Positions 37,986-55,552 of a DNA stretch of 64,000 bases are shown here, piece after piece; position 1 is the first letter of the stretch; each line of letters starts with the position of its first letter. The position numbers were made by a program, and so were the translations under genes. Under the pieces are notes generated by a model. That model was not told where the DNA came from. It did no database searches and saw nothing but the letters and a program-made list of their open reading frames with translations. Origin of the DNA: Anaeromyxobacter dehalogenans 2CP-1 (GTDB taxonomy: Bacteria; Myxococcota; Myxococcia; Myxococcales; Anaeromyxobacteraceae); the NCBI RefSeq assembly GCF_000022145.1, contig NC_011891.1, forward strand, positions 2,306,001 to 2,370,000. The letters are read 5' to 3'.

Positions 37986-38966
37986 ATGAGCGTACCCCGC
38001 AGCAGCCTGCCGGTCCTCGGCACCGACGCGCCCACCTCGCGGCGCGACATCGCGAGCGCGATGCGCGAGCGCGGCGTCCCCATGGACGCGAAGAAGCCGA
38101 GCTGGCTCCGGGTGAACGTGCCGGGGGGCGAGCGGTACCAGAAGGTCCGGGAGACGCTGAAGGGCCTCCAGCTCCACACCGTCTGCGCCGAGGCGCACTG
38201 CCCGAACGTGGCGGAGTGCTGGGGCGGCGGCACCGCGACCGTCATGCTGATGGGCGACGTGTGCACCCGCGGCTGCCGCTTCTGCAACGTGAAGACGGCC
38301 GCCCACCCGCCCGCGCTCGATCCGGACGAGCCGCGCCACCTGGCCGAGGCCATCGCCGAGCTGGCGCTCGACTACATCGTCGTGACCAGCGTGGACCGCG
38401 ACGACCTGCCCGACGGCGGCGCCGCGCACTTCGCCGACGCGATCCGGCGGCTGAAGGAGATCCCGGGTCTGCTCGTCGAGGTGCTCACGCCGGACTTCCG
38501 CGGCGACCCGGAGGCCGTGCGCACCGTCGGCCGCGCCGCGCCCGACGTCTTCGCGAACAACCTCGAGACCGTGCGTCGGCTCACGCCCGCGGTCCGCGAC
38601 GCGAAGGCCACCTACGACCAGACGCTCGGCGTCCTCGCGCAGCTGAAGCGCGAGTTCCCGCAGGTGGTCACCAAGTCGTCGATCATGGTCGGCCTGGGCG
38701 AGCAGGAGGCCGAGGTGGTCGAGGCGATGCGGGACCTCCGCGCGCACGGCGTCGAGATCCTCACGCTCGGCCAGTACCTGCGGCCGAGCGCCTGGCACCT
38801 GCCGGTGGTGGAGTACGTGTCGCCCGAGCGCTTCGCGGCGTACCGGGACCAGGGGCTCGCCCTCGGGTTCCGGTACGTGGCGAGCGGCCCGCTGGTCCGG
38901 TCGTCGTACCGCGCGGCGGAGCTGTTCCTGCGCGGCGAGATCGAGTCGAGGACGAAGCCCCGCTGA
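37986..38966 (+). CDS. lipA: Lipoyl synthase
   Basis: The 326-residue radical-SAM enzyme has both LipA cluster motifs: [12 protein letters not shown] for the auxiliary 4Fe-4S cluster (CxxxxCxxxxxC) and [10 protein letters not shown] for the SAM cluster. RSSYRAAE at the end supplies the Ser that ligates the auxiliary cluster. It inserts two sulfurs into protein-bound octanoyl groups. The gene opens a cluster encoding the dehydrogenase complex whose E2 it would activate. The E1alpha gene follows after 14 bases with an AGGAG. Confidence 0.97.
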
Positions 38967-38980
38967 CGACAGGAGCGAGC

Positions 38981-40174
38981 ATGCGCCGAGAGCACGTGGT
39001 GGGTCCGCCGACGAGGCATCACCCGCGCGAGGCACGGGACTACGAGCCCGGCCGGTTCCTGAAGGAGTTCCCGCTCCACACGGTCATCCGTGAGGACGGC
39101 TCCGCGGATCCGGACGAGGTGGTCCTGCCGGACGCGGAGGCGCTGCGGCTGTACCGGTGGATGGTGCTGAACCGCGCGCTCGACGAGCGGATGATCACGC
39201 TCCAGCGCCAGGGGCGGATCGGCTTCTACATCGGGTCGATCGGCGAGGAGGCCACCGTGCTCGGCACGGCGGCGGCGATGGACGAGCGCGACTGGATCTA
39301 CCCGTGCTACCGCGAGCACGGGGCCGCGCTGCTGCGCGGGATGCCGCTCGTCACGTTCGTCTGCGACCTGTTCGGCAACGGCGGGGACGCCATGAAGGGC
39401 CGGCAGATGCCCTGCCACGAGGCGTGGCGGCCGGGCCGCTTCACCTCGATCAGCTCGCCCATCGCCACCCAGGTCTCGCAGGCGATGGGCGGCGCCTGGG
39501 CGGCGAAGCTGAAGGGCGAGGAGATGGTCGCCATCACCTACTTCGGCGAGGGCGCCACCAGCGCGCACGACTTCCACACCGGCCTGAACTTCGCGGCGGT
39601 GCGGAAGATCCCGGTGGTGTTCGTGTGCCGCAACAACGGCTGGGCCATCAGCGTGCCGCGCGAGCGGCAGACCGCCTCCGAGACCATCGCGCAGAAGGCG
39701 ATCGCGTACGGCATGCGCGGCGAGCGCGTCGATGGGAACGACCTGCTCGCGGTGTACGCCGCCACCCGCCGGGCGCGGGCGCGCGCCGCCGCCGGCGAGG
39801 GCCCGACGCTGCTCGAGTGCGTGACCTACCGCATCGAGGGGCACTCGACCTCCGACGACCCGCGCGCGTACCGGCCGGCCGAGCTGGTCGAGCCCTGGAA
39901 GCGCAAGGACCCGATCCTGCGCATGCGCCGCTACCTCTCGCGGCGCGGCGCGCTCGACGAGGCGCAGGACGCCGCGCTCCGCGACGAGCTGCGCGAGCAG
40001 ATCCAGGCGGCGCTGAAGGAGGCCGAGGCGTTCCCGGCCAAGCCGTCCATCGAGACGCTGTTCGCCGACGTGTACGAGGAGCCGCTCTGGCAGCAGCGCG
40101 AGCAGCTGGCCGAGATCGAGGCGGCGGTCGCCGCGGACCCGCGCGCGGCGAACCCGCGCCACTCCGACGCGTGA
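38981..40174 (+). CDS. 2-oxoacid (branched-chain) dehydrogenase E1 alpha subunit
   Basis: The 397-residue protein matches E1 alpha of the branched-chain complex. IGFYIGSIGEEATVLGTAAA opens the core and YREHGAALLRG follows. The thiamine diphosphate motif is FGEGATSAHDFHTGLNFAAV (GDG variant GEG ... N). The phosphorylation-loop region is IEGHSTSDDPRAYR, where the SDDP arrangement is typical of branched-chain rather than pyruvate E1. With E1beta it decarboxylates the keto acids of Val, Leu and Ile. In Myxococcus the equivalent esg locus supplies branched fatty acids for development. AGGAG precedes the ATG. Confidence 0.93.
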   Translation: MRREHVVGPPTRHHPREARDYEPGRFLKEFPLHTVIREDGSADPDEVVLPDAEALRLYRWMVLNRALDERMITLQRQGRIGFYIGSIGEEATVLGTAAAMDERDWIYPCYREHGAALLRGMPLVTFVCDLFGNGGDAMKGRQMPCHEAWRPGRFTSISSPIATQVSQAMGGAWAAKLKGEEMVAITYFGEGATSAHDFHTGLNFAAVRKIPVVFVCRNNGWAISVPRERQTASETIAQKAIAYGMRGERVDGNDLLAVYAATRRARARAAAGEGPTLLECVTYRIEGHSTSDDPRAYRPAELVEPWKRKDPILRMRRYLSRRGALDEAQDAALRDELREQIQAALKEAEAFPAKPSIETLFADVYEEPLWQQREQLAEIEAAVAADPRAANPRHSDA

Positions 40175-40187
40175 TACAGGGGGCCGC

Positions 40188-41162
40188 ATGCCCACCATGA
40201 ACATCATCCAGGCGGTCAACGACGCGCTCCGGATCGAGATGCGCAAGGATCCGGACGTGGTGGTGCTGGGCGAGGACGTCGGGAAGTTCGGCGGCGTGTT
40301 CCGCGCCACGCAGGGGCTCTACGACGAGTTCGGCGCCGACCGTGTCATCGACACCCCGCTCGCCGAGGGCGGCATCATCGGCACCGCGGTGGGCATGGCG
40401 CTCTACGGCCTGAAGCCGGTGCCGGAGATCCAGTTCGCCGACTTCATCTTCCCGGCGTTCGACCAGATCGTGAACGAGGTGGCGAAGTACCGCTACCGCT
40501 CCGGCGGCCAGTACGCCTGCCCCATGGTCATCCGCACGCCGTACGGCGGCGGCATCAAGGGCGGCCACTACCACTCGCAGTCGCCCGAGGCGATGTTCAT
40601 CCACACCGCCGGCCTGAAGGTGGTCGTCCCGTCCAACCCCTACGACGCCAAGGGGCTCCTCATCAGCGCCATCCGCGACCCGGACCCGGTGCTGTTCTTC
40701 GAGCCGAAGCGCGTCTACCGCGCCGCCAAGGGCGACGTGCCCGAAGGCGAGTACGCCGAGCCGCTCGGCAAGGCCAGGATCACGCGCGCCGGCAACCAGG
40801 TGACGGTGATGGCCTGGGGCTCGATGTGGCACGAGGTGGACCAGGCCGCGCGCGAGGCGGCGGCCGAGGGGTTCGACTGCGAGGTCATCGACCTCCGCTC
40901 GCTCCAGCCGCTCGACCTCGAGACCATCGTGGCGTCGGTGTCGAAGACCGGGCGCGCCATCGTGGTGCACGAGGCGCCGCGCACCTGCGGGTTCGGCGCG
41001 GAGATCGCCGCGCTGGTCCAGGAGCGCTGCTTCCTGCACCTCGAGGCGCCGGTGGCGCGCGTCACCGGCTTCGACACGCCGTTCCCGTACACGCTCGAGA
41101 ACGAGTACCTGCCGCGCGCGCCGCGCATCCTGAAGGCCATCCGCGAGGTGGTCGCGTACTGA
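40188..41162 (+). CDS. 2-oxoacid (branched-chain) dehydrogenase E1 beta subunit
   Basis: The 324-residue protein has the transketolase-like core: VVVLGEDVGKFGGVFRATQG, DTPLAEGGIIGTAVGMALYG and RTPYGGGIKGGHYHSQSPEA, in which the HSQS-E segment shapes the substrate pocket. The C-terminal domain contains DLRSLQPLDLETI and HEAPRTCGFGAEI. Length and motifs fit E1beta of the branched-chain complex. It lies 13 bases after E1alpha and 13 before E2, all in one operon. Confidence 0.95.
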   Translation: MPTMNIIQAVNDALRIEMRKDPDVVVLGEDVGKFGGVFRATQGLYDEFGADRVIDTPLAEGGIIGTAVGMALYGLKPVPEIQFADFIFPAFDQIVNEVAKYRYRSGGQYACPMVIRTPYGGGIKGGHYHSQSPEAMFIHTAGLKVVVPSNPYDAKGLLISAIRDPDPVLFFEPKRVYRAAKGDVPEGEYAEPLGKARITRAGNQVTVMAWGSMWHEVDQAAREAAAEGFDCEVIDLRSLQPLDLETIVASVSKTGRAIVVHEAPRTCGFGAEIAALVQERCFLHLEAPVARVTGFDTPFPYTLENEYLPRAPRILKAIREVVAY

Positions 41163-41175
41163 GGGGGAGTCGTCC

Positions 41176-42501
41176 ATGGCCTACAAGCTCGAGCTCCCCG
41201 ACATCGGCGAGGGGGTCGTCGAGGCGGAGGTCCAGCAGTGGTTCGTCGCCCCGGGCGACGCGATCACCGAGGATCAGCCGCTCGTCGAGGTGATGACCGA
41301 CAAGGCGACGGTGGTGATCCCGTCGCCGAAGCGCGGCACGGTGGTGAAGCTGTTCTGGAACGTGGGCGACGTCGCCAAGGTGCACTCGCCGCTGGTCGAG
41401 ATCGAGCTCGACGACGCGCCGCCGCGCCCGGCGCCCGAGGCGCCGGTGCGCGCCGCCACCGCGGCCGCGACGGCCCAGGCGGCCGCGGCGGCGAGCGTCG
41501 CCGTGGGCCGGCCGGCCCAGGCCGAGCCGCCCGCGGCGGCGGCGGCCCCCTCGGCGGCGGCAGGGCCCGCGGGCGCGAAGGCGCTCGCCACCCCCGCCGT
41601 GCGCGCCATGGCGCGGGAGCTGGGGATCGACGTGAACACGGTGCCGGGCACCGGCCCGGGCGGCCGCGTCACCAAGGACGACCTGTCGCGCGCGCGCGGC
41701 AAGGTGAACGGGCACGGCGGCGAGACGGAGGTGCCGGCCCCGGCGCCCGCCGCGGCCCGCGCCCCTGTGCCGGCGCCGTCGCCGGCCGGCCCGCCGGAGG
41801 CGGACGAGCGGATCCCGCTGCGCGGCATGCGGCGGAAGATCGCCGAGAACATGGCGCGCTCGAAGCGGACCGCCGCCCACTTCACGTTCGTGGAGCAGGC
41901 GGACGTCACCGAGCTGGTCCGGGTGAAGGACCGGATCGCCGCCGCCGCGAAGGAGGAGGGCGTCCGCGTCACGTTCCTGCCGTTCGTGGTGAAGGCGGTC
42001 GTCGCCGCCCTGCGCAAGTTCCCGAAGCTGAACGCGTCGCTCGACGACGAGCGCGGCGAGATCGTGGTGAAGCACCGGTACGACCTCGGCGTCGCGTCGG
42101 CCACCGACGCGGGCCTGGTGGTCCCGGTGATCCGCGCGGCCGATCGCCGCTCGCTCCTCGATCTCGCCCGGGAGATCGAGCGGCTCTCGCAGGACACCAA
42201 GGCCGGGCGCATCCGCCCCGAGGACCTGGGCAGCTCCACCTTCACCATCACCAGCCTGGGCGCGCTGGGCGGGCTGTTCGCCACCCCGGTGCTGAACCAC
42301 CCCGAGGTCGGCATCCTGGGCATCCACCGCATCCGGCCCACGCCGGTGGTGCGCGACGGGCAGATCGTCGCCCGCGACGTGATGCACGTCTCGCTCACGA
42401 GCGACCACCGCGTGGTGGACGGGCACGAGGCGGCCGCGTTCACCTACCAGGTGATCAGGTACCTCGAGGATCCCAACCTGCTGTTCATGCAGATGGTGTG
42501 A
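41176..42501 (+). CDS. Dihydrolipoamide acyltransferase E2 of the branched-chain complex
   Basis: The 441-residue protein has one lipoyl domain (residues 1-78; the lipoylated Lys lies in VEVMTDKATV). An Ala/Pro-rich linker is followed by a peripheral-subunit binding domain (about 135-175, ATPAVRAMARELGIDVNTVP). A second linker leads to the catalytic domain (about 210-441) with the active-site motif HRVVDGHEA and the block STFTITSLGALGG. It carries acyl groups from E1 to CoA and forms the core of the complex. Its lipoyl Lys is the expected target of LipA and LipB in the same cluster. Confidence 0.95.
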   Translation: MAYKLELPDIGEGVVEAEVQQWFVAPGDAITEDQPLVEVMTDKATVVIPSPKRGTVVKLFWNVGDVAKVHSPLVEIELDDAPPRPAPEAPVRAATAAATAQAAAAASVAVGRPAQAEPPAAAAAPSAAAGPAGAKALATPAVRAMARELGIDVNTVPGTGPGGRVTKDDLSRARGKVNGHGGETEVPAPAPAAARAPVPAPSPAGPPEADERIPLRGMRRKIAENMARSKRTAAHFTFVEQADVTELVRVKDRIAAAAKEEGVRVTFLPFVVKAVVAALRKFPKLNASLDDERGEIVVKHRYDLGVASATDAGLVVPVIRAADRRSLLDLAREIERLSQDTKAGRIRPEDLGSSTFTITSLGALGGLFATPVLNHPEVGILGIHRIRPTPVVRDGQIVARDVMHVSLTSDHRVVDGHEAAAFTYQVIRYLEDPNLLFMQMV

Positions 42502-43307: not shown

Positions 43308-44162
43308 ATGGCCGGCGACCGCCCCGTCTCCCCCCGCCTCGATCGCACCGCGCGGCTGCTCGGGCTCGAGGCCATGGGCCGGCTGGCGCGCGCGCACGTG
43401 GTGGTGCTGGGGATCGGGGGCGTCGGGACGGTCGCGGCCGAGGCGCTGTGCCGGGCCGGCGTCGGCCGCCTCACGCTGGTGGACGGCGAGCGCGTCGAGG
43501 AGATGAACGCGAACCGCCAGCTCCACGCGCTCGACGGCGCGTTCGGCGCGCCCAAGGCGGAGGCGCTGGCGGAGCGGCTCCGGCGCGTGATCCCGGGGGC
43601 GCGGGTGGACGCGGTGGTCGGGCGCTACGACGAGGGGAGCGCGGCGCGCCTCGTGCCGGAGGGCGTGTCCTGCGTGGTGGACGCGATGGACACGGTCGTC
43701 GCGAAGCTGCACGTCATCGCGCGCTGCCTGGAGCACCGCATCCCCATCGTCACCTCGCTCGGCGCGGCGCGGCGGCTCGACCCCACCGCGATCCAGGTGA
43801 CGGACCTCTGCGAGACGCACACCGACCAGCTTGCCAAGGACGTGCGCAAGTACCTGCGCCGCCGCTTCGGGATCTCGGCCACCGCGCCCACCGGCGTCAC
43901 CGCGGTCTGGTCGATGGAGGCGCCGCGGCCGACGCTGGCGCTGCCCGGCGACGAGGACGGCATCCCCGGCACGCGCCCGCGGCTGCCCGGGGAGCGGCGC
44001 CGCGAGCCGAAGTGCTACGGGAGCGCCATGTTCGTCACCGGCGCGTTCGGCCTCGCCGCGGCCGCGGCGGTGGTGCACGCGCTCGGCGGTGTGGCCCCGG
44101 TCGCGCCGCGCACGCTGTCCGAGGCGGAGGCGAAGCGCCGGCGCAAGCCGCGCGCCCGGTGA
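43308..44162 (+). CDS. tcdA: tRNA threonylcarbamoyladenosine dehydratase
   Basis: The 284-residue E1-like enzyme has the nucleotide-binding motif VLGIGGVGTVAAEALCRAGV and the conserved MNANRQLHAL Arg finger region. CVVDAMDTVVAKLHVI and RKYLRRR-type segments are also typical of TcdA (YgdL/CsdL). It uses ATP to cyclise t6A37 to ct6A in tRNA. It shares the ThiF/MoeB fold but lacks the CxxC zinc pairs of MoeB, which supports TcdA. A hydrophobic C-terminus (FGLAAAAAVVHALGG) agrees with the membrane association reported for E. coli TcdA. Confidence 0.9.
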   Translation: MAGDRPVSPRLDRTARLLGLEAMGRLARAHVVVLGIGGVGTVAAEALCRAGVGRLTLVDGERVEEMNANRQLHALDGAFGAPKAEALAERLRRVIPGARVDAVVGRYDEGSAARLVPEGVSCVVDAMDTVVAKLHVIARCLEHRIPIVTSLGAARRLDPTAIQVTDLCETHTDQLAKDVRKYLRRRFGISATAPTGVTAVWSMEAPRPTLALPGDEDGIPGTRPRLPGERRREPKCYGSAMFVTGAFGLAAAAAVVHALGGVAPVAPRTLSEAEAKRRRKPRAR

Positions 44163-44404: not shown

Positions 44405-45859
44405 ATGCCCACCCAGACCTACGACGCCATCGTGATCGGCGCCGGCACCGGAGGCTACCCGGCCGCCATCCGCCTCGCCCAGCTCGGCAAGAAGGTCGCG
44501 CTCATCGAGAAGGACGCCACCCTGGGCGGCGTCTGCCTGAACTGGGGGTGCATCCCGTCGAAGGCGCTCATCGCGGCCGCCAACCTGGTGGACGAGATGC
44601 GCGGCGCCGCCGATCGCGGGATCATCGCCGAGCCGCCGCGCGTCGACGTGGCGAAGCTGCGCGAGTTCAAGGACGGCGTGGTGAAGAAGCTCACCGGCGG
44701 CGTGGCGCTGCTCGAGAAGGGCAACGGCGTCGAGGTGGTGCGCGGGACCGCCACCGTGGTCGCGCCGAACGCGGTCGAGGTGGCCGGCAAGGACGGGCAG
44801 AAGACGCGGCTCGAGGCCGGCGCGATCCTGGTCGCCACCGGCGCGCGGCCCATCGAGATCCCGGGGTTCGCGTTCGACGGGAAGGACGTCTGGAGCGCGC
44901 GGGAGGCGGTGGATCTCCCGGAGGTGCCGAAGCGCCTGGTCTGCATCGGCGGCGGCATCATCGGCATGGAGCTCGGGACCGTCTACGCGAAGCTCGGCGC
45001 GCAGGTGACCTTCGTCGAGGCGCTGCCGCAGGTGCTCACCGGCGTCGATCCCGACGCGGTGCGCCTGGTGCAGAAGGGGCTCCGCCAGCGCGGCGTGGCC
45101 GTGCACGTGAACGCGAAGGCGAAGGGGTACGAGCGCCGCGGCAAGGAGCTGGTCGTCAAGATCGAGATCGAGGGCAAGGAGCAGGAGATCCCCTGCGACA
45201 AGATCCTGGTCGCGGTCGGCTTCAAGCCGAGCTCGGCCGGCTTCGGCCTCGAGCAGGTGGGCGTGAAGATCGGGCCGAAGGGCTTCATCGAGGTCGATCA
45301 GCAGTACCGCACCAGCGTGCCGACCATCTTCGCCGCCGGCGACGTGACCGGGCCGCCGCTGCTCGCGCACAAGGCGTCGAAGGAGGGCGAGATCGCCGCC
45401 GAGGTCATCGCGGGCCACAAGACCGTGCGCGACTGGGTGGGGATGCCCACCGCCATCTTCACCGACCCCGAGGTCGCCGCGGTGGGCCTCTCGGAGGAGG
45501 AGGCGCGCAAGCAGGGGTACGATCCCATCGTCGGCAAGTTCGCGTTCGGGGCGCTGGGTCGCGCCATCGCCATCCACCACACCGAGGGCTTCGTGAAGGT
45601 GGTGGGCGACCGCAAGACGAAGCTCCTGCTCGGCGCGAGCATCTGCGGGCCCGAGGCCGGCGACCTCATCGCCGAGGCCGCGCTGGCGCTGGAGATGGGC
45701 GCGTACCTGGAGGACGTGGCGCTCACCATCCACGCCCACCCGACGCTCCCCGAGGCGCTCAACGAGGCCTGCCGCGCCGCGCTCGGCGAGGCCATCCACA
45801 TGCTGAACCGCCCGGAGCGCCCGAAGAAGGGCGAGGCCGCCGCGGGCGCCCGGGCCTGA
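44405..45859 (+). CDS. lpdA: Dihydrolipoyl dehydrogenase (E3)
   Basis: The 484-residue flavoprotein has the FAD motif DAIVIGAGTGGYPAAIRLA and the redox disulfide GGVCLNWGCIPSKAL (CxxxxC). The NAD motif is CIGGGIIGMELGTVYAKLG, a second FAD motif is FAAGDVTGPPLLAHKA, and the C-terminal catalytic pair is IHAHPTLPEAL (His-Glu). It reoxidises dihydrolipoyl E2. The ATG at 44405 follows GAGGG. A GTG at 44348, six bases after a -10-like TAGAGT, would add 19 residues if the mRNA is leaderless. The fused LipB gene follows after 65 bases. Confidence 0.96.
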   Translation: MPTQTYDAIVIGAGTGGYPAAIRLAQLGKKVALIEKDATLGGVCLNWGCIPSKALIAAANLVDEMRGAADRGIIAEPPRVDVAKLREFKDGVVKKLTGGVALLEKGNGVEVVRGTATVVAPNAVEVAGKDGQKTRLEAGAILVATGARPIEIPGFAFDGKDVWSAREAVDLPEVPKRLVCIGGGIIGMELGTVYAKLGAQVTFVEALPQVLTGVDPDAVRLVQKGLRQRGVAVHVNAKAKGYERRGKELVVKIEIEGKEQEIPCDKILVAVGFKPSSAGFGLEQVGVKIGPKGFIEVDQQYRTSVPTIFAAGDVTGPPLLAHKASKEGEIAAEVIAGHKTVRDWVGMPTAIFTDPEVAAVGLSEEEARKQGYDPIVGKFAFGALGRAIAIHHTEGFVKVVGDRKTKLLLGASICGPEAGDLIAEAALALEMGAYLEDVALTIHAHPTLPEALNEACRAALGEAIHMLNRPERPKKGEAAAGARA

Positions 45860-45924: not shown

Positions 45925-47022
45925 ATGCCGCGCGTCCTGCGCACCTACCGCCTCGGCCGCGTCGAGTACGAGGACGGGCTCGCGCTCATGCGGCTCGCCG
46001 CCGACGCGGTCCGCGCCGGCACGCCCGCCGCGACCGACTTCTTGTTCCTGCTCGAGCACCCGCCGGTGCTGACGCTCGGCCGCAGCGCCGGGCGCGAGCA
46101 CATCGTGGCCGCGCCGGCCTGGCTCGAGAAGCAGGGCTTCGAGATCCACGAGACCGACCGCGGCGGGGACGTCACCTACCACGGGCCCGGCCAGATCGTC
46201 GGCTACCCGGTGCTCGATCTGAACGGCCGCAAGGACGTGCGGCGGTACGTGGGGGCGCTCGAGGAGGCGATGATCCGCACCTGCGCCGACTTCGGCGTGG
46301 AGGCGGGCCGCCACCCCGAGCACCGGGGCTGCTGGGTGGGCCGCCGGAAGATCGGCGCGATCGGCGTGCACCTCTCGCGCTGGATCACCTCGCACGGCTT
46401 CGCGTTCAACGCCCGCACCGACCTCGCGCACTTCCAGGTGATCGTCCCGTGCGGCATCGCGGATCCCCGCCTCGGCGTGACCAGCCTCGAGGCCGAGCTG
46501 GCGGCGCGGGGCCGGGCCACGCCGGAGCAGGCCGAGATCGAGAACCGGCTGGCCGCGCACCTCGCCGACGTCCTGGAGCTGGCCCGCGCCGACGCCGGGC
46601 CCGACCTGCGCACCATCTCGGTGGTCCCGGTGCGGCCGGACGGGCGCGTGCTGCTGCTCCGGCGGAGCGTGGAGCGGGGCGGCTTCTGGCAGCAGGTGAC
46701 CGGGCGGATCGAGCCGGGCGAGGCGCCGGAGCAGGCCGCGCGGCGGGAGCTGCGCGAGGAGACCGGCGCCGATCTCCCGGTGGTGTCCCTCGGCTACCGG
46801 CACGCGTTCGGGCTCGACCCCAGCGTCAACCGCGTCCGGCCCGGCGCGCTCGTGGTGGTCGAGGAGGTGGCGTTCGCGGCCCGGGTGCCCGACGGGTTCG
46901 AGCCGCGCCTCTCCGGCGAGCACACCGAGCACGCCTGGGCCACCGGGGAGGAGGCGGCCGCGCAGCTGCGCTTCCCCGGGCTGCGGCGGGCGGTGCGGCT
47001 CGCGCTCAGCGCCCGGCGCTGA
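45925..47022 (+). CDS. lipB: Fusion of octanoyltransferase LipB and a Nudix hydrolase
   Basis: The 365-residue protein has two domains. Residues 1 to about 222 are LipB: LLEHPPVLTLGRSAG, ETDRGGDVTYHGPGQIVGYP, Lys142 in GRRKIGAIGVHL and Cys176 in IVPCGI, the Lys/Cys pair used for octanoyl transfer from ACP to E2. Residues 230-365 are a Nudix domain. Its complete Nudix box (GRIEPGEAPEQAARRELREE then TGA, about 260-282) contains the REL-REE metal ligands. The Nudix part resembles dihydroneopterin-triphosphate pyrophosphatases or ADP-ribose-type hydrolases. GGGAGGG precedes the ATG. The end overlaps the convergent kinase gene by 17 bases. Why octanoyl transfer is linked to nucleotide cleavage is unknown. 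Confidence 0.92.
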   Translation: MPRVLRTYRLGRVEYEDGLALMRLAADAVRAGTPAATDFLFLLEHPPVLTLGRSAGREHIVAAPAWLEKQGFEIHETDRGGDVTYHGPGQIVGYPVLDLNGRKDVRRYVGALEEAMIRTCADFGVEAGRHPEHRGCWVGRRKIGAIGVHLSRWITSHGFAFNARTDLAHFQVIVPCGIADPRLGVTSLEAELAARGRATPEQAEIENRLAAHLADVLELARADAGPDLRTISVVPVRPDGRVLLLRRSVERGGFWQQVTGRIEPGEAPEQAARRELREETGADLPVVSLGYRHAFGLDPSVNRVRPGALVVVEEVAFAARVPDGFEPRLSGEHTEHAWATGEEAAAQLRFPGLRRAVRLALSARR

Positions 47023-53907: not shown

Positions 53908-54163
53908 ACGACGCGCTCACGGGTGGGTCGCGCGAAACCCGTGAACGGGTGCGCGATATCCGCTTGGAGTAAAGCCACGTGATCCTTAGGGACGCAGATC
54001 TGCCCCTTTCACGTACAGTATACCCCCTACGAGTGTCACATGATCAAGGGATATCGTACCCGTTTGAAGGGACAAAAAGTGGTGCGGATCCGTGCCCAAA
54101 GGTGCGCGAGGGGGAGTGGCGGTGGGGACCCCTGCGTGGACAGGCGACGGAGGAGGAAAGCTC
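53908..54163. promoter_or_regulatory. AT-richer divergent control region
   Basis: This 256-base gap between the large kinase and the repeat-protein gene is clearly less GC-rich than its surroundings. It contains an inverted repeat ACCCGT-GA-ACGGGT (53937-53950), two near-identical CACRTGATC words (53976-53984 and 54037-54045) and AGTATACC (54018-54024), a possible -10 for the rightward genes. AGGAGG stands nine bases before the ATG at 54164. No small gene is evident. Confidence 0.45.
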
Positions 54164-55552
54164 ATGCACGTCTACATCCGCTCGCTCCTGATCGCAGCTC
54201 TTCTCACCGTCGCCGCGCACGCCCGCGCAACCACCAGCGAGAACGGCCTGGTCGGGAACGGCATCAACACGAACGGCATCAACACGAACGGGATCAACAC
54301 CAACGGGATCAACACCAACGGTCTCGTCGGCAACGGCATCAACACGAACGGCATCAACACGAACGGCATCAACACGAACGGCATCAACACGAACGGCATC
54401 AACACGAACGGGATCAACACCAACGGTCTCGTCGGCAACGGCATCAACACGAACGGCATCAACACCAACGGCATCAACACGAACGGCATCAACACGAACG
54501 GCATCAACACGAACGGCATCAACACGAACGGCATCAACACGAACGGCATCAACACGAACGGCATCAACACGAACGGCATCAACACGAACGGCATCAACAC
54601 GAACGGGATCAACACGAACGGCATCAACACGAACGGCATCGACACGAACGGCATCAACACGAACGGCATCAACACGAACGGCATCAACACGAACGGCATC
54701 AACACGAACGGGATCAACACGAACGGCATCAACACGAACGGCATCAACACGAACGGCATCAACACGAACGGGATCAACACGAACGGGATCAACACGAACG
54801 GCATCAACACGAACGGGATCAACACGAACGGCATCAACACGAACGGCATCAACACCAATGGCTTCCGTCCGCTCGACAACGGCCTCGCCTTCGGCGCGGG
54901 CACGTCGGGGATCGCGGCCGCGGGCCTGACCGGCTCCGCGATGGCCGCCCCGGCGTTCGCCGCCTGGTTCGACCGCGACGCCGGGTACTCGGACATGGTC
55001 ATGAAGTACGTGGCGCAGTGCGCGCTGCCGGCCGGCGCCACGCTGTCCTACGCGCACGCCGGCAAGTCCTACGCGTGGTCGGGCGTGTTCGGCCTGGCGC
55101 CGCGGTGGTCCGCGGGCGCCGCCATCCCCGCCGCCGAGCAGGAGCTCGTGAGCGCCTGCGTCGCGGCGCACACGAACGCCTTCGGCAAGCACGTCCAGAT
55201 CTCCGTCCGCGGCTACGACCCCAGCGGCGCGGCCATCCCCGTCACCGCCGAGGAGACCGCCGGCTGGCGGTTCAGCGAGGCGACGTACTTCGGCAACCTC
55301 TTCGACGGCTCCGGCGTGTACGTGGCGCTCTCGGCCGAGTCGCTCGATCCGCGCGTGTCCACGCCCCGCGGCTGCGCCGCCGAGCACGGCGTCCCGGGCT
55401 CCTGCGGCCCGATGGTCCAGGCCGGGCTGGCCGCGGACCGCTGCACGGCGGGCGCGGACGGCGTCACGCACGCCTCCTGCTCGGTGAACGGGCGCGCGTT
55501 CCGGCCCGTGCAGGTCTTCCTGACCACGGCCGACGTGTCCATCTCGGAGTAG
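54164..55552 (+). CDS. Exported protein with 41 tandem NGINT pentapeptide units
   Basis: The 462-residue product has a signal peptide (MHVYIRSLLIAALLTVAAHA). From residue 27 to 231 there are 41 consecutive five-residue units. Thirty-eight are Asn-Gly-Ile-Asn-Thr (one with Asp for the second Asn). Three NGLVG units mark the starts of blocks of 4, 6 and 28. The regular hydrophobic Ile every fifth residue, with Asn on both sides, is what a narrow beta-solenoid needs, like pentapeptide-repeat helices but without their A(D/N)LXX pattern. The C-terminal 230 residues form a separate Cys-containing domain (MKYVAQCALPAGATLSYAHA, GVFGLAPRW). AGGAGG sets the start. The FHA gene follows after 14 bases. 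Function unknown. Confidence 0.85.
   Translation: MHVYIRSLLIAALLTVAAHARATTSENGLVGNGINTNGINTNGINTNGINTNGLVGNGINTNGINTNGINTNGINTNGINTNGINTNGLVGNGINTNGINTNGINTNGINTNGINTNGINTNGINTNGINTNGINTNGINTNGINTNGINTNGINTNGIDTNGINTNGINTNGINTNGINTNGINTNGINTNGINTNGINTNGINTNGINTNGINTNGINTNGINTNGINTNGFRPLDNGLAFGAGTSGIAAAGLTGSAMAAPAFAAWFDRDAGYSDMVMKYVAQCALPAGATLSYAHAGKSYAWSGVFGLAPRWSAGAAIPAAEQELVSACVAAHTNAFGKHVQISVRGYDPSGAAIPVTAEETAGWRFSEATYFGNLFDGSGVYVALSAESLDPRVSTPRGCAAEHGVPGSCGPMVQAGLAADRCTAGADGVTHASCSVNGRAFRPVQVFLTTADVSISE
54242..54856 (+). repeat. Tandem 15-base repeat, 41 units
   Basis: Units of AACGGCATCAACACG run without interruption for 615 bases. Variation is nearly confined to wobble positions (GGC/GGG, ACG/ACC), one A-to-G change making Asp (54632-54646) and three units AACGGYCTSGTCGGS coding NGLVG (54242, 54317, 54422). 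The high nucleotide identity points to recent expansion or homogenisation. Slippage would change the protein by whole units without breaking the frame. Confidence 0.97.

Follow-up and report, generated by a model that had tools for sequence, protein, structure and literature searches.

Here we describe a gene of Anaeromyxobacter dehalogenans 2CP-1, located within a window of 64,000 nucleotides (the whole stretch of DNA analysed), whose product joins the octanoyltransferase LipB to a NudB-like Nudix hydrolase. LipB-Nudix is a real, conserved two-in-one enzyme with respect to its predicted activities, and the nearest relative of its Nudix half is NudB, the dihydroneopterin-triphosphate pyrophosphatase. 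The parts are known; their combination is new as far as the open-access literature searched shows, in which we found no description of a fusion between LipB, or octanoyltransferase, and a Nudix domain. Among catalogued proteins, the LplA-LipA fusion (NF053790) likewise contains a lipoate-pathway enzyme, but it joins two of these and has no Nudix domain. NadM-Nudix (PRK05379) and the Nudix family protein PRK08999 resemble our protein in placing a Nudix domain in a longer chain with a second part; however, the partner is a different one and both models score only 20-32 bits on the window protein, which does not belong to them.

The lipB-nudix gene spans 45925-47022 of the window on the + strand, as do all features given below, and runs from an ATG at 45925 to a stop codon at 47020-47022 in a single unbroken frame of 365 codons plus stop. 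These coordinates are exactly those at which the first-pass annotation had placed a LipB fused to a complete Nudix hydrolase, and both domains are matched in Pfam. The LipB octanoyltransferase domain (residues 15-212, 45967-46560; PF21948, LplA-B_cat, E 7.5e-41) belongs to its family by both curated NCBIfam models, with 151 bits for TIGR00214 (cut-off 83.6) and 165 bits for PRK14345 (cut-off 155), and contains the catalytic lysine Lys142 (codon 46348-46350) and the acyl-accepting cysteine Cys176 (codon 46450-46452). Its top solved structure is a LipB (2qhs, 42% identity), with solved LipBs at 42-43%. It thus shares with known LipB (TIGR00214; PDB 1w66, 2qhs) the whole domain, the Lys/Cys pair and a model score above cut-off, and differs in the C-terminal Nudix domain, which the inspected LipBs from outside Myxococcales do not have. 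This second domain, at 46609-47019, is matched by PF00293 (NUDIX) over residues 229-348 (E 2.6e-17; 63.5 bits against a cut-off of 21.1). By sequence and structure comparison it belongs to the Nudix superfamily, having the Nudix fold and a complete Nudix box, GX5EX7REUXEEXGU, at residues 260-282 (46702-46770). An FWQxxTG loop at residues 254-260 (46684-46704) is also present in E. coli NudB, and the invariant pair Glu332-His333 (46918-46923) corresponds to Glu117-His118 of that enzyme.

The first-pass annotation had further claimed that both halves keep their catalytic residues, and an alignment of 55 fused sequences, the window protein included, bears this out. Identical in all 55 are K142, H149 and C176 of the LipB half, and G260, E266, R274, E275, E278, E279, G281, E332 and H333 of the Nudix half. 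Since every catalytic residue tested in it is invariant, the Nudix half would appear to be an enzyme under selection. Compared with six relatives of the same family, dN/dS was 0.11-0.35 for the LipB half and 0.09-0.53 for the Nudix half. We are therefore highly confident in predicting an active LipB and an active Nudix pyrophosphohydrolase in a single chain. A chance open reading frame or frame artefact was ruled out by the family matches, the conservation and the recurrence of the fusion in about 137 species genomes, and a degenerate Nudix half by the invariant catalytic residues. We also considered that the Nudix half might sense a nucleotide or pterin and regulate LipB, with no significant catalysis of its own. 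Effector-binding Nudix modules do exist (NrtR, 3gz8, among the structure matches), and the AlphaFold2 model is confident for the two-domain protein as a whole (pLDDT 90.1, pTM 0.89). Nevertheless, pure binding would not need the box glutamates or the candidate base Glu332, all of them invariant in the 55 sequences, and we regard a sensor as most improbable.

LipB was found in 181 of 195 Myxococcota genomes searched and, within Myxococcales, in 140 of 145 (own genome included). The Nudix half accompanies it in 137 of these 140, a count that includes G140, whose gene is divided between the ends of two contigs, and G029, whose lipB part carries a deletion and a frameshift, so the survey of such fusions proposed in the first pass revealed a trait conserved in the order rather than a local oddity. 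Three Myxococcales genomes carry LipB without the Nudix half (G057, G143, G144), and five have no LipB match (G024, G043, G071, G145, G156), at least in part due to incomplete assemblies. The first-pass annotation had also envisaged relatives with the two domains in separate, unlinked genes; none was seen inside Myxococcales. Outside the order, no fused LipB was present wherever the alignment was inspected, and a search of 29 outgroup genomes for close counterparts of the Nudix half gave just three weak matches, at most one of which could share a contig with lipB, since the other two lie elsewhere. No plasmid LipB match covered 80% of the query, and a GTDB pattern scan, with patterns that reach close relatives only, returned matches from the Myxococcales group alone; fusions in other phyla are therefore possible. 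We infer a probable single origin of the fusion close to the base of Myxococcales, followed by at least two losses. In the G029 gene (L129, contig C127), the LipB half is frameshifted and lacks about 70 residues, whereas the Nudix half is intact, reflecting either an assembly error or a real loss of the LipB half.

As to which Nudix enzyme this is, the best NCBIfam Nudix model for the window protein is that of NudB (NF006961), with 63 bits, the runner-up reaching 32. The NudB score is below the curated cut-off of 103 bits, which no protein in any of the 145 Myxococcales genomes reaches. The same model matches all 22 divergent fusion members scanned, with the best E-value of all families, and in the own genome it gives the fused domain 62 bits and the next Nudix protein 29. 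The top solved Nudix structure by Foldseek is E. coli NudB, and VIA against NudB gave Z 19.7 over 134 residues (rmsd 1.8), compared with Z 18.3 for Ap6A hydrolase, a margin of 1.4. The Nudix half retains FWQxxTG, Glu100, Phe103 and Glu117-His118 (NudB numbering), and the FWQxxTG loop is absent from those other Nudix proteins of the own genome that were read out. Fold, loop, Glu-His pair and top rank in sequence and structure thus align it with NudB (E. coli b1865; NF006961; PDB 2o1c, 5u7e), from which it differs in its score below cut-off, its identity of about 29% and its position behind LipB, the NudB substrate being a prediction. Across the order, the NudB model matches 136 of 145 genomes at E <= 1e-8, and nearly all of these have their best match within the fused gene (positions compared by eye). 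Outside the fusion, the model matches only seven lone paralogues, which are confined to family f2; one of them (G026) slightly outscores the fused gene. Lone Nudix paralogues of f2 from G024, G028 and G027 (L074, L081 and L080) share 39-44% identity with the fused domain and have VTG with no FWQ motif; those of G024 and G028 have an Rrf2-type regulator on one side and an aminotransferase-like gene on the other.

Our best reading, to which we give about an even chance, is a bifunctional LipB/NudB-like enzyme whose predicted Nudix substrate is dihydroneopterin triphosphate (DHNTP). Within the substrate list of the first-pass annotation, DHNTP is the favoured entry; NADH and CoA are not, given a NudC model score of 27 bits against 63 for NudB and an unmatched CoA-diphosphatase model. 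Transferring a substrate by similarity is unsafe here, because a clan-wide Nudix phylogeny groups NudB with ApnA hydrolases (PMC5389931). That grouping suits the main competing explanation, namely that the Nudix half actively hydrolyses ApnA, 8-oxo or other NTPs in housecleaning or alarmone turnover, was joined to LipB because this aids co-expression or stability, and is unconnected with folate. The Ap6A hydrolase Ndx1 is indeed near in both fold (Z 18.3) and identity (34%), and in most families the fusion is surrounded by lipoate and dehydrogenase genes, not folate genes. More broadly, Ap6A/Ap4A hydrolases (Ndx1, 1vc8; aq_158, 3i7u) form the second-closest fold group (Z 17.4-18.3, identity up to 34%), although they rank below NudB, with the FWQxxTG loop having been compared with NudB alone. 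Against a housecleaning role, the NudB model and structures come first, the MutT and NudG models stay below 30 bits for the window protein, and folE is linked to the fusion in family f2. We therefore consider this explanation possible, at perhaps one chance in three.

The fusion gene closes a cluster of genes in the order lipA, E1-alpha, E1-beta, E2, tatD, ThiF/TcdA-like, lpd and lipB-nudix, all on the + strand. These include lipA for lipoyl synthase (37986-38966; TIGR00510, E 4e-119), the E1-alpha (38981-40174; PF00676) and E1-beta (40188-41162; family-model matches) subunits of a 2-oxoacid dehydrogenase, an E2 acyltransferase with a lipoyl domain (41176-42501; PF00198, PF00364, PF02817) and lpd for the dihydrolipoyl dehydrogenase, E3 (44405-45859; TIGR01350, E 1.5e-155; start codon uncertain), which ends 65 bp before the lipB start. 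The first pass had seen a lipoate/branched-chain dehydrogenase cluster. Its lipoate and 2-oxoacid dehydrogenase components hold; the dehydrogenase may be of either the branched-chain or the pyruvate type, the best E1-alpha model being that of pyruvate dehydrogenase (TIGR03181), which scores slightly below cut-off (395 bits against 411). A large part of the cluster is conserved in the family and it is partly conserved over Myxococcales. Two genes inside it (43308-44162) encode a TatD nuclease and a ThiF/TcdA-like adenylyltransferase, the latter scoring 169 bits with the TcdA model (cut-off 304); both genes are absent in several relatives, where the cluster has closed up. Elsewhere in the window, positions 54256-54855 hold 40 copies of a 15-base unit encoding an Asn-Gly-Ile-Asn-Thr motif, within a gene at about 54092-55552 (+) whose product resembles a secreted protein.

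No other protein of the LipB/LplA family was found in the genome (one contig of 5,029,329 bases), and lipoyl attachment therefore has no evident route other than lipB-nudix. The N-terminal half, as the cell's only LipB, would transfer octanoate from octanoyl-ACP via Cys176 to lipoyl domains, for example the one in the adjacently encoded E2, and LipA would then add sulphur to the octanoylated domain. Given the fusion itself and its neighbourhood of lipA and 2-oxoacid dehydrogenase genes, the Nudix half might be thought to act on a compound of the lipoate pathway (octanoyl-AMP, lipoyl-AMP, CoA or acyl-CoA), clearing or tuning the substrates of LipB. The first-pass annotation had raised such clearing of acyl-adenylates, a suggestion that loses its footing because the genome has no LplA-type ligase to form them, which leaves lipoyl- or octanoyl-AMP with no obvious origin. 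In addition, no CoA-diphosphatase model appears among the NCBIfam matches of fusion members, and the closest relatives of the Nudix half act on ApnA and on nucleoside or pterin triphosphates. We judge a lipoate-pathway substrate very unlikely.

DHNTP, the substrate of NudB, is made by FolE. In the proposed mechanism, the C-terminal half would act as a metal-dependent, NudB-like pyrophosphohydrolase, presumably converting DHNTP into its monophosphate and pyrophosphate early in the folate pathway. The own genome encodes FolE and HPPK (FolK), its folE lying in a conserved queD-folE-SDR-FAD oxidase (glycolate-oxidase-like) cluster (L130, about 2,252,000-2,255,100). This cluster stands alone in several other Myxococcales, in some of them with members that are not recognised. 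In each of the nine family f2 genomes whose contig extends far enough, it follows lipB-nudix on the same strand, with the folE start about 0.3-3.2 kb downstream of the fusion. In G029, where lipB itself is broken, the gap from the Nudix stop to queD is just 16 bp, whereas most of the other f2 genomes have a convergent ribA, in some cases accompanied by an MBL-fold gene, between lipB-nudix and queD-folE. The f2 linkage may represent a single event, and as such is modest evidence. In Anaeromyxobacter and Myxococcus no folate genes are found directly beside lipB-nudix; in Myxococcus, convergent MBL-ribA-moeA genes follow directly downstream.

The own genome yielded no FolB match, nor did 52 others (53 of 145 Myxococcales). 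A bypass through PTPS-III, which would spare the NudB step, was ruled out: the PTPS adjoining folE does not have the ExxHGH signature of PTPS-III (PMC5041015), and instead carries the CxxxHGH motif of QueD and scores above the QueD cut-off. With no FolB and a PTPS of the QueD type, the folate route after DHNTP is unaccounted for in this genome. An anticorrelation between FolB and the Nudix half, hinted at by a first sample, does not hold order-wide, as Myxococcaceae have both. The missing FolB counts against DHNTP as the substrate, as do the three genomes without the Nudix half, which retain FolE, FolK and FolB.

Any benefit of coupling might lie in glycine cleavage, which both lipoate and folate cofactors serve and whose H protein (GcvH) is encoded in the genome. 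A purposeful coupling of lipoate and folate supply is, in our estimation, unlikely. Equally speculative is its extended form, in which the first step of lipoyl assembly would be joined order-wide to a step early in folate synthesis. Lipoylation and the DHNTP/folate branch would then run in parallel, perhaps keeping the two cofactors of glycine cleavage in balance, with the Nudix half feeding an unrecognised replacement of dihydroneopterin aldolase. Such a replacement is proposed because many Myxococcales genomes have no recognisable folB.

In conclusion, we have named DHNTP as a testable substrate for the Nudix half of this fusion, which is the best NudB candidate in Myxococcales, where free NudB-like proteins are almost absent, and have exposed a gap in the folate route, the apparent lack of folB, which Anaeromyxobacter shares with many relatives. 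The retention of the fusion, with two intact active sites, in about 137 species genomes suggests a gain from coupling two cofactor pathways.
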